Below, piece after piece: positions 60,874 through 64,000 of a stretch of DNA of 64,000 nt. Position 1 is the first letter of the stretch; each line of letters begins with the position of its first letter. Below the pieces are notes generated by a model. The model was not told where the DNA came from. It was given only the letters and a program-made list of their open reading frames with translations, and ran no database searches. The translations under genes were made by a program, and so were the position numbers. Source of the stretch: Acidobacteriota bacterium (GTDB lineage Bacteria > Acidobacteriota > Terriglobia > Terriglobales > Acidobacteriaceae); assembly GCA_019351975.1 (NCBI GenBank), contig JABBOG010000001.1, positions 1 through 64,000 on the forward strand, given 5' to 3'.

Positions 60874-62181
60874 CTACGGTTGAGGTGGTGCGTGGAGCAG
60901 GTTGAGGATGGTTTCGGTGACGCGGAGGATGGGTGAGGATGGATGCTGTGGGGGCGGCTGAAGCCGGCTTCGAACCTCTGCGAGGGCTGCGATCTGCGCG
61001 GATCGCTCGGGGCCATCGAAGAGCAGCGGGCCGAGTTTTGACGCAACATTCGCTGCGTTGAAGCTGACCTGGAGCAGTTCAGGAACGATGCGCTTTCCGG
61101 CGATCAGATTGACCATTGCGACGGGTAGGTTTCCGGCGACGTCTTTCATGCCGGAGAGTTCCTCGGGATACTCCACTAGTTTTTTTGCGAGTGCGAACGT
61201 GAGCGCGGAGACTCGGTAGACGACGATGAAAGGATTGCCAACGATGGCGGCGAGCACGGTTGCCGTGCCACTGGCGACGACAGAGGCGCGCGCGTGATGG
61301 AGGGCTTCGCGTGCGTTGGGAACGAGGGTGAGTCGTATGCTGGCGGCTTCAGGGCCGAAGTATTTCAGGTGCTCGGCGTTCAAGCTTTGAATGTATTGGC
61401 GCAGCGCCTGAATGTCGATCGTGGAGGCGACGGGTAGAAGGAACTCGTAGCGGGTGTGAGCGGCCGGGTCGGATGGCTGGATGGTGGTATCACCGTTAAA
61501 GGTCGTGTACGCAGCGGCGGTAGTGATGAGATCGCTCATCGCAAGTTCATGCAGGGCAGGAAGGTTTGCGCGAATCTCTTTCCAGCGGCTGCCGGGGAGC
61601 AGAGCGATCCACGTCCTGGATGGGTCGAGATGATGCTGGTCAGCGTAATGCTCACGCGATGGAACAGGAAGAGTGTCCGTGGCGAGGGGATGGCCGACAA
61701 ACGTTGCATCTACGCCGCGTTCGCGATAAAAGCTCTCTTCAAAGGGAAAGATGACAAGCATTTTGTCGACGCGTTCCTGCACCCAGCGAAGTCTTCCGCG
61801 CTTCCACGCCCATAGCTGTGGGCTAACGAACCAGACAACAGGAACACCGGTGCGATGGAGGTGTTTTGCCAGACGAAAGTTGACGTCTGGGAAGTCGATG
61901 AGGATGGCAATATCGGGACGGTTTCGGCGAATCGCTGCGACGAGTTTGCGGTAGCTCGCGAAGATGCGCGGGATGTGGCGCAGGATCTCTGTGACACCCA
62001 TGACGGCGACATCCTCTGCGCGTACGACGCGCTGCTGGCCTGCGCGCTCCATCTGGATGCCACCGAGACCCGTGAAGGTGGCGGATGGAAGGTTGATGCG
62101 AAGGGCATCGATCAGGGCTGCACCATAGGCATCGCCGGACGCTTCACCGGCGGAGACAAAGATGCGCGGATTGGGCTGAAT
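60874..62181 (-). CDS. lpxB: Lipid-A-disaccharide synthase LpxB with probable ATT start
   Basis: Encodes about 435 residues. The family N-terminus 'RIFVSAGEASGDAYGAALI' is read from 62161 downward and is essential for UDP-sugar binding. The first ATG in frame, at 62052, would cut off 43 residues including this motif. No ATG, GTG or TTG lies in frame before it. ATT at 62181 has GGAG seven bases upstream, and gives MQPNPRIFVS. ATT is a rare start (infC, pcnB in E. coli). Other motifs: 'VWFVSPQLWAWKRGR', 'FVGHPL', 'LLPGSRWKEI'. It forms lipid A disaccharide from UDP-diacylglucosamine and lipid X. It follows the MsbA-like gene by 56 bases. Confidence 0.85.
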   Translation of the reverse strand: MQPNPRIFVSAGEASGDAYGAALIDALRINLPSATFTGLGGIQMERAGQQRVVRAEDVAVMGVTEILRHIPRIFASYRKLVAAIRRNRPDIAILIDFPDVNFRLAKHLHRTGVPVVWFVSPQLWAWKRGRLRWVQERVDKMLVIFPFEESFYRERGVDATFVGHPLATDTLPVPSREHYADQHHLDPSRTWIALLPGSRWKEIRANLPALHELAMSDLITTAAAYTTFNGDTTIQPSDPAAHTRYEFLLPVASTIDIQALRQYIQSLNAEHLKYFGPEAASIRLTLVPNAREALHHARASVVASGTATVLAAIVGNPFIVVYRVSALTFALAKKLVEYPEELSGMKDVAGNLPVAMVNLIAGKRIVPELLQVSFNAANVASKLGPLLFDGPERSAQIAALAEVRSRLQPPPQHPSSPILRVTETILNLLHAPPQP

Positions 62182-62237
62182 CGCAATGCTCCAAGTGTAA
62201 CGCTGGGGATACTTTGAGTTGAATGCGTGCGGTTGCT

Positions 62238-64000
62238 CTATGCTGTGATCGTGGCCGATGCGATGTCCGCGGTCAACTCCTGATCCTTGTACTGAAGCTG
62301 ATAGAGCTTGAAATAGAGGCCGCGCATGGCGAGAAGCTCTTGATGCGTGCCCTGCTCGCGAAGTTTGCCTTTGTGCATGACGAGGATGGTGTCGGCGCGC
62401 TGAATGGTGGAGAGACGGTGGGCGATAAGGACGGAAGTTCGCCCAGTGATCATACGCTCCAGCGCAAGACGGACGCGGAATTCAGTCTCAGTGTCTACGG
62501 AACTGGTGGCTTCGTCGAGTATGAGGATTCCGGGGCGATGGGCGAGCGCGCGCGCGAAGCTGATGAGCTGCTTTTGGCCCGTGGATAGCGTGGATCCGCG
62601 CTCGAGGACGGGTTCAGCAAAGCCTTGCGGAAGCGTACGAATGAAGTCAGCTACGTTGACTTCCTCTGCGGCGTTGGTGACTTCATCCTCGGTGATCCAG
62701 TTGGAGCCAAGACGAATGTTTTGCGCGATCGTTCCGGAGAAGAGGAAAGGATCCTGAAGTACTACACCGAAGCGGCGCCGCAGCTTGTTGAGGTCCTGTT
62801 CGCGCACATCCACACCATCGACGATGACCGCTCCGCGCTGAACGTCGTAGAAACGCATCATGAGCGCGGTGATGGTCGTTTTGCCTGCACCGGTGTGGCC
62901 GACGATCGCGGCGGTCTTGTCGGGGTCAACTGTGAAGCTCACGCCGCGAAGAATCCATTCGATACCTTTGAAGTGTTGGAGTTGATCATCATTTAGGATG
63001 CGCAGTTGCTCGAGTTGAAGCGGTGTGAGTTGTTGGTAGGTAAACCATACGTCGCGAAACTCAATTTTTCCGCTACGGTCGCCAGGAATGGGATGCGGAA
63101 GCTCGGTTTTGATCTCGGGTTGAGTGTCGAGGAGCTTGAAGACGCGTTCTGCGGCAGCCATGGCGGCTTGAAGGATGTTGTATTTGTCGCTGAGATCTTG
63201 AATTGGGCGGAAGAATCGCTGCGCATACTGGATGAATGCAATTAGGATGCCGAGCGTGACGATGGGGTGAAGGAAGTTTGCATGCGCTGCGAGGGCGGGT
63301 GTGGCGTGCAGGACTGCGATGCCGCCGCGCCAGATGACCAACGCAATTGCGATAGAACTTAGGAGTTCGACGACGGGATAGTACAGGGCGTACGCGAAGA
63401 TGGCGTCCGTCCAGGCTTGTTTGTTGAGCTGATTCACCGCAGAGAAGTCATCGAAGGCCCGTTGCTCGCGGTTGAAGAGTTGTACAACGCTCATACCTGA
63501 GACGTATTCCTGTGTGAACGCGTTGATCTTCGCGGTTGCGGCGCGCTGGCGGCGGTAGCTTTCGCGAACGTGACGGCGGAAAAGATGGGTGGCGTACAGG
63601 ATCGCAGGAATTACTGAAAGCGTCAGGAGCGCAAGCAACCAGCTCATCTTGAGCATGATGGCAACGATGAAGGTGAGAACGAAGATGTCCTCAAAGATGG
63701 CGAGGACGCCGGAGGTGAACATCTCGTTGAGCGCGTCCACGTCTGAAGTGACGCGAGTGACGAGACGGCCTACGGGGTTGCGGTCAAAGAATGCTACATG
63801 CATGCGCTGGATATGGCGAAAAATCTGGCTGCGAAGATCGAACATGATCTTCTGGCCGGTCCACTGCATCATGTAGGTCTGTACAAATTCGAGACCGAAG
63901 ATCAATACAAGCGTAGCTAGATAGAGGAAGGCGAGCTCAGTGACGCCGCGCACCGGGTCGGGGCTCAGCCTGGAGGCGAGCCAAGAGTGTTTTTCGTGTG
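62238..64000 (-). CDS. MsbA-like ABC exporter, 5' end beyond the window
   Basis: At least 587 residues; the frame is open to the edge, so the start lies outside. Several membrane helices are followed by an ATPase: Walker A 'GHTGAGKTT', signature 'LSTGQKQLISFARAL', Walker B 'ILILDEATSSVD' and the H-loop 'IAHRLST'. An insert of about 25 residues (rich in Gln/Leu, 'LTPLQLEQLRILNDDQLQHF') interrupts the ATPase before 'WILRGVSF'. Context with lpxB suggests a lipid A flippase like MsbA, but drug exporters of the same type are similar. The insert is unusual. Confidence 0.85.
   Translation of the reverse strand, partial: HEKHSWLASRLSPDPVRGVTELAFLYLATLVLIFGLEFVQTYMMQWTGQKIMFDLRSQIFRHIQRMHVAFFDRNPVGRLVTRVTSDVDALNEMFTSGVLAIFEDIFVLTFIVAIMLKMSWLLALLTLSVIPAILYATHLFRRHVRESYRRQRAATAKINAFTQEYVSGMSVVQLFNREQRAFDDFSAVNQLNKQAWTDAIFAYALYYPVVELLSSIAIALVIWRGGIAVLHATPALAAHANFLHPIVTLGILIAFIQYAQRFFRPIQDLSDKYNILQAAMAAAERVFKLLDTQPEIKTELPHPIPGDRSGKIEFRDVWFTYQQLTPLQLEQLRILNDDQLQHFKGIEWILRGVSFTVDPDKTAAIVGHTGAGKTTITALMMRFYDVQRGAVIVDGVDVREQDLNKLRRRFGVVLQDPFLFSGTIAQNIRLGSNWITEDEVTNAAEEVNVADFIRTLPQGFAEPVLERGSTLSTGQKQLISFARALAHRPGILILDEATSSVDTETEFRVRLALERMITGRTSVLIAHRLSTIQRADTILVMHKGKLREQGTHQELLAMRGLYFKLYQLQYKDQELTADIASATITA

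Follow-up and report, generated by a model that had tools for sequence, protein, structure and literature searches.

Leaderless mRNAs are generally thought to rely on a 5′-terminal AUG, because little else in them marks the start of translation. In Deinococcus deserti, proteomics-supported ATC and CTG starts were reportedly described by Baudet in 2010, and an abundance of leaderless mRNAs by de Groot in 2014. These starts belong to other genes, in another phylum, than the lpxB gene described here. If any of them is both leaderless and ATC, the combination that we propose for lpxB is not unprecedented. In Escherichia coli, the AUU start codon of pcnB limits the output of a gene that does not function in translation. 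The pcnB mRNA is not known to be leaderless.

The start codon of infC is ATT in E. coli and ATC in Streptomyces, and infC is autoregulated by IF3 (PMC5472188). Streptomyces sigR starts at GTC in 32 of 34 species, or at GTT, and IF3 represses sigR from its GTC codon (PMC5472188). Leaderless genes have been recognized by a TANNNT box about 12 bp upstream of the start, with a mean frequency of 13.3% in Acidobacteria (three genomes), and the examples presented carry ATG or GTG (PMC3160421). Raised IF3 inhibits some leaderless mRNAs, and low IF3 can help them (PMC9031893). Non-AUG codons are described as poor in leaderless mRNAs of E. coli, which counts against a model with AUC or AUU (PMC9031893).

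We propose, with a probability of roughly 0.85, that lpxB of an Acidobacteriaceae genome is transcribed from its own sigma-70-type promoter and that its leaderless mRNA is translated from a 5′-terminal AUU at position 62187. This gene shares an AUU start and a role outside translation with pcnB, which is not known to be leaderless. It shares with infC an Ile-type start codon in which ATT and ATC interchange, and differs in that it appears leaderless and does not encode a translation factor. Like sigR, lpxB has a conserved non-canonical start in a non-translation gene, whereas the ribosome binding site of sigR is extensive (AGGAGGTG) (PMC5472188). The effect of IF3 was tested for sigR (PMC5472188); for lpxB we infer it. 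The -10 box and its spacing match those of described leaderless genes, and the 5′-terminal codon, AUC or AUU, sets lpxB apart from the examples given for them (PMC3160421). No earlier report of this lpxB start was found in titles and abstract beginnings of the open-licence literature, among the matches listed.

The lpxB reading frame

The window, the whole stretch of 64,000 nucleotides that we analysed, encodes lpxB near one end, with the following features.

62238..63998, minus strand: ABC transporter gene, upstream of lpxB and cut by the window end
60874..62187, minus strand: lpxB (lipid-A-disaccharide synthase; PF02684, 5w8s), 437 codons and a stop, with ATT 62187-62185 as the first codon
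62185..62187, minus strand: ATT start codon and predicted transcription start (+1 = 62187); 51 of 97 distinct regions have ATC, ATT or ATA (ATH) as the aligned codon
62050..62052, minus strand: first canonical in-frame ATG, past the GEASGD motif, which cannot yield a whole LpxB

A profile search matched PF02684 to the gene in two stretches (204.1 and 55.8 bits) that cover profile positions 1-210 and 251-348. This whole-family match includes the N-terminal GEASGD region and places the gene in the LpxB family. The search detected no second PF02684 match in the window genome, a draft of 132 contigs that is 95% complete. The solved LpxB 5w8s also matches (E 1e-41). Counted from a start at 62187, query residue 9 aligns to chain position 9 of this protein, and the two N-termini would thus have the same length.

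The in-frame stop upstream of lpxB is a TGA at 62484. A sequence-only reading of this DNA had claimed that the frame holds no ATG, GTG or TTG before GEASGD and that its first ATG, at 62052, lies beyond this motif. Reading every codon from TGA 62484 to ATG 62052 bore out both statements. The frame ahead of this ATG also carries a strong coding signal, as judged by a codon-usage score trained on a congener. Among 42 window ORFs, lpxB had the highest score ahead of its first canonical start (9.4). The ORFs that scored next (6.9 and 6.8), 10608 and 47326 (minus strand), appeared by eye to be ordinary genes; the sequence preceding 47326 overlaps an ORF on the plus strand.

The stop codon of the ABC transporter gene and the start of lpxB, on the same strand, are 50 nt apart. 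A homologue of this transporter gene lies upstream at 39 of the 62 named lpxB loci.

Start codons in related genomes

We found lpxB in 23 of 28 genomes of the window's GTDB genus and in 373 of 398 genomes of the family. Granulicella species are the closest named relatives. Start regions were read at 140 lpxB loci. The window gene is present among them in three copies and many genomes are represented by two entries, and identical sequences were merged. Seven loci without the motif or upstream sequence were dropped (L018, one of these, was read later), and the other 133 gave 97 distinct regions. This count is kept throughout, although one member, the second row of L062, matches the motif by chance and is not lpxB, which leaves 96 real regions.

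The aligned start codon is ATH in 51 of the 97 distinct regions, the window included (ATC in 42, ATT in eight and ATA in one), and sits 13 codons before GEASGD. Because these 51 regions were defined by ATH at the aligned codon, its invariance among them is not itself evidence; promoter spacing and the absence of canonical starts were not selected. Canonical starts are absent from the 25 codons upstream of GEASGD in 39 of the 51 regions and from the whole frame back to the in-frame stop in 26. In 17 regions, no canonical start precedes GEASGD and an in-frame stop lies within the four codons ahead of the ATH codon. L018 has a TGA immediately before its ATT. By comparison, 44 of the 46 non-ATH regions have a canonical start close by, the exceptions being the L062 chance match and L084. 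The missing start thus characterizes one part of the family and does not arise from LpxB searches as such. The ATH genomes belong to GTDB groups g1, g35 and g32.

ATC or ATT is present in 19 of the 21 distinct regions of the genus. L020, from the same genus, has ATG at the aligned codon, and L021, also from this genus, has ATG one codon upstream. ATG is likewise found at the aligned codon in L107 and L136. We examined 18 further regions, of which 12 repeated known sequences. Among the new ones, L229 has ATT at a gap of 6 from the promoter box described below, L231 has ATC six bases from TAAACT and is one codon shorter, and L232 and L238 have canonical starts; the remaining two come from G240 and G174, genomes with a TTG start that are described below.

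The relatives' start regions support the proposal, made from the sequence alone, that the gene begins at a non-AUG codon (ATT in the window), and the suggested alignment of related lpxB genes shows this property to be conserved. ATG in the aligned place in a relative had been named as a sign against the proposal. Such relatives form a minority (L020, L107 and L136, with L021 offset by one codon) and the majority have ATH; the ATG forms show the codon changing while the start site is kept, and are not signs of an error in the window. Acidobacteriaceae of the Granulicella/Edaphobacter type very probably share a conserved leaderless AUC/AUU start of lpxB, which has reverted to ATG, GTG or TTG in some of them. 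In the conservation of a non-canonical start codon among orthologues, lpxB resembles infC and sigR. Gene finders limited to ATG, GTG and TTG would be expected to misplace or truncate lpxB in many Granulicella and Edaphobacter genomes.

We also made observations on individual records. The lpxB of L084 (Acidobacteriaceae MAG clean814, a distant lineage) has no ATG, GTG or TTG before GEASGD. It has no TA...T box at the lpxB spacing and has AGGA upstream of an ATT, and it is possibly an independent case of a non-canonical start. Records L066 and L041 are titled Rhodanobacteraceae and Verrucomicrobia, yet carry a Granulicella-type lpxB, and are probably mislabelled bins; L066 is also a row of the tree described below. 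Terriglobus roseus DSM 18391 (L062, L063) has lpxB twice, about 460 kb apart and with identical match statistics, a situation also seen in G304. The two copies in DSM 18391 likely reflect a duplicated segment.

Promoter spacing and the leaderless model

The segment directly upstream of the aligned codon contains a candidate promoter element.

62194..62199, minus strand: -10 box TACACT, 6 nt upstream of ATT 62187; consensus TAnACT in relatives

A TA...T box ends 5-7 nt before the ATH codon in 48 of the 51 regions (43 at 6 nt, four at 7 and one at 5). The aligned boxes read TAnACT. All 48 have C at position 5 and 45 of them have A at position 4; the first T, the A that follows it and the last T were set by the search pattern. 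No -35 element emerged, as no column upstream of the -10 box exceeded 0.6 bits in the 48 aligned regions. The window arrangement, TACACT-6-ATT, has the TANNNT about 6 nt before the start codon that marks leaderless sigma-70 genes. Such genes are described as starting with AUG or, in certain bacteria, GUG (PMC9031893), and the window has ATT.

A -10 box that ends 6 nt before ATT 62187 implies that transcription should begin at its A and that the mRNA would be leaderless. On the simplest reading of these sequences, the +1 of lpxB should be the A of AUU or AUC. Promoters with exactly this geometry are common in the congener G011, as indicated by a peak at this spacing. In 1.2 Mb of this genome, TANN[AC]T lies 6 nt before the first ATG in 36 of 784 cases. 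It occurs 23 times at a spacing of seven, 13 at eight and 20 at nine, against a background of 1-7 occurrences at each spacing from 20 to 54.

Three of the 51 regions (L012, L014 and L065) have no TA...T at the right spacing. In L014, from G011, TACACT lies 31 nt upstream of the AUC instead of 6, which implies a leader of about 25 nt there. G011 may thus have gained a short leader while keeping AUC. L065 lacks the box altogether, and a GTG stands four codons ahead of its ATH codon; its ATH label is therefore doubtful.

We suggest the following route to LpxB. A sigma-70-type promoter with the -10 box TACACT (TAnACT in relatives), ending 6 nt before ATT 62187, would direct transcription from the A of this ATT, giving an lpxB mRNA with neither a leader nor a Shine-Dalgarno sequence. 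Ribosomes, probably 70S particles with fMet-tRNA as on other leaderless mRNAs, would then initiate at the 5′-terminal AUU (mostly AUC in relatives). The predicted N-terminus is Met-Ala-Ile-Gln-Pro-Asn-Pro-Arg-Ile-Phe-Val-Ser-Ala-Gly-Glu... Codon 2 encodes Ala in 31 of 48 aligned regions, which suits a processed N-terminus. The weak start codon probably caps LpxB output and makes this output sensitive to IF3.

By being both leaderless and non-AUG, lpxB would join two weaknesses, an arrangement that could fit a need to limit LpxB. The retention of a leaderless AUC/AUU start across three GTDB genera may, tentatively and at somewhat less than even odds, reflect a translational valve on lipid A synthesis, in which LpxB output depends on the level of IF3 and on free 70S ribosomes and fMet-tRNA. 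Such a valve would couple the production of outer-membrane lipid to the state of the translation apparatus. A conserved 5′-terminal AUC/AUU in a lipid A gene also provides a direct test of the AUG rule of leaderless mRNAs.

Codon changes behind a conserved box

Two of the 398 genomes (G240 and G174) have one extra base just after the ATT when compared with their relatives L122 and L126. The old ATT frame runs into a TAG in both, and the lpxB frame now opens with a TTG that overlaps the ATT, 7 bases from TACACT. In sister lineages, the box is followed at a gap of 6 by ATG (L060) or GTG (L071), at a gap of 8 by GTG (L064 and L068) and at a gap of 9 by GTG (L062 and L074). L020 has ATG at a gap of 9. 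These cases indicate that the start site stays put, or nearly so, while the codon changes. The occurrence of ATG, GTG, TTG and ATC/ATT/ATA behind one box provides a ready natural series for experiments.

We built a tree of 64 regions, using loci in which most of the gene is present and leaving out L067, L089 and L091 as too short, with the root set at the midpoint for drawing only. One clade of 52 rows (support 100/100) mixes 38 ATH with 14 canonical starts, and none of the 12 rows outside it is ATH. The 38 ATH rows include L065, with its doubtful label. The tree needs seven changes between ATH and canonical codons. The simplest history has ATH arising once and canonical codons coming back several times, a direction that the counts leave unproven.

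Alternative starts

Two further features bear on where translation begins.

62189..62192, minus strand: GGAG, proposed Shine-Dalgarno; probably an untranscribed chance match in the promoter gap
62179..62181, minus strand: second ATT, an ordinary third codon; the aligned codon is variable

The conserved ATC could be a transcription start sequence only, with translation starting codons later, at ATG at codon 3 or else at ACG, ACT or another codon. An A at +1 is expected of a promoter. Among 48 regions, the codon aligned with 62181 is ACG in 11, ATG in nine, ACC in eight and ACT in four, with others including GCC, AGC, ACA and ATA. Initiation could happen at the codon-3 ATG in the nine relatives that have it. 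However, codon 3 takes at least eight forms, and ATC is retained even where a codon-3 ATG exists. A transcription start requires a purine rather than ATC, and the 1-nt insertion in G240 and G174 is accompanied by an in-frame TTG that overlaps the first codon. We therefore consider a later start very unlikely.

The sequence-only reading had instead placed the start at ATT 62181, behind a Shine-Dalgarno GGAG, and had dismissed ATT 62187 as too close to that GGAG. The GGAG (62192-62189) does lie seven bases ahead of ATT 62181, and a read-through transcript from the ABC transporter gene, 50 nt away and in the same orientation, could carry both. SD-like tetramers precede the ATH codon in just two of the 51 regions, however, namely the window and L110, and the strong ribosome binding site of infC and sigR is thus not a feature of lpxB. 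The GGAG is best taken as a chance occurrence. It very probably belongs to the gap that separates the -10 box from the transcription start and does not act as a Shine-Dalgarno site. It is also codon 62187 that is conserved, with the box exactly 6 nt before it, while the codon aligned with 62181 varies. Initiation at 62181 is accordingly very unlikely as the main route, and could yield a minor extra product in the window species.

A sequencing or assembly error that deleted a normal lpxB start, also raised from the sequence alone, is conceivable in a draft of 132 contigs. The same situation recurs in 39 of 51 distinct regions from many independent genomes, including the single-contig G003 and G011, and leaves this explanation a negligible chance. 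A decaying or truncated lpxB starting at ATG 62052, its first canonical start, is just as implausible, since this start would remove GEASGD and the first strand of a protein whose N-terminus is conserved throughout the clade, and the window genome yielded no other lpxB. Translation of a leaderless mRNA from AUU at 62187 remains our preferred explanation.

Non-canonical starts elsewhere in the genome

We considered whether ATC leaderless starts are a genome-wide habit, and rejected this view because ATC is absent from the position 6 nt from TANN[AC]T among 785 ORFs in 1.2 Mb of G011. This comparison is blind to G011's own lpxB, which lacks a box at 6 nt. The codons enriched at this position include ATG (35, 7.0x) and GTG (9, 3.7x). 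TCT is also enriched (6, 3.1x), which shows the noise level, and ATT occurs three times (1.8x) with no convincing case.

We also scanned G011 for coding signal that precedes the first canonical start, a scan that would miss starts misplaced by just a few codons, and lpxB ranked second (9.9) of 747 ORFs scored. The highest score (15.2) belongs to what looks like a ligase-ACP-acyltransferase gene with a frameshift. Judged by eye, the next ORFs (7.0, 5.3, then below 4) represent either antisense shadows or unremarkable upstream sequence.

The comparison with infC drawn from the sequence alone proved apt. In 25 of 26 infC loci of the genus (L201-L226), the aligned start is ATT (17) or ATC (8), in most cases with a Shine-Dalgarno sequence. 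A GGAGG-type core is present in 20 of these 25 loci, and in 14 of the 25 the frame holds no canonical start between the aligned codon and the stop upstream. In the infC of the window genome (L221), a GTG lies in frame six codons before the ATT, and the ATT call there rests on the alignment and on the GGAGG that precedes this ATT.

In G011:C1, near 133885 on the minus strand, a gene of the ligase-ACP-acyltransferase type is seemingly split by a frameshift, with its ACP part apparently in a different frame from the acyltransferase.
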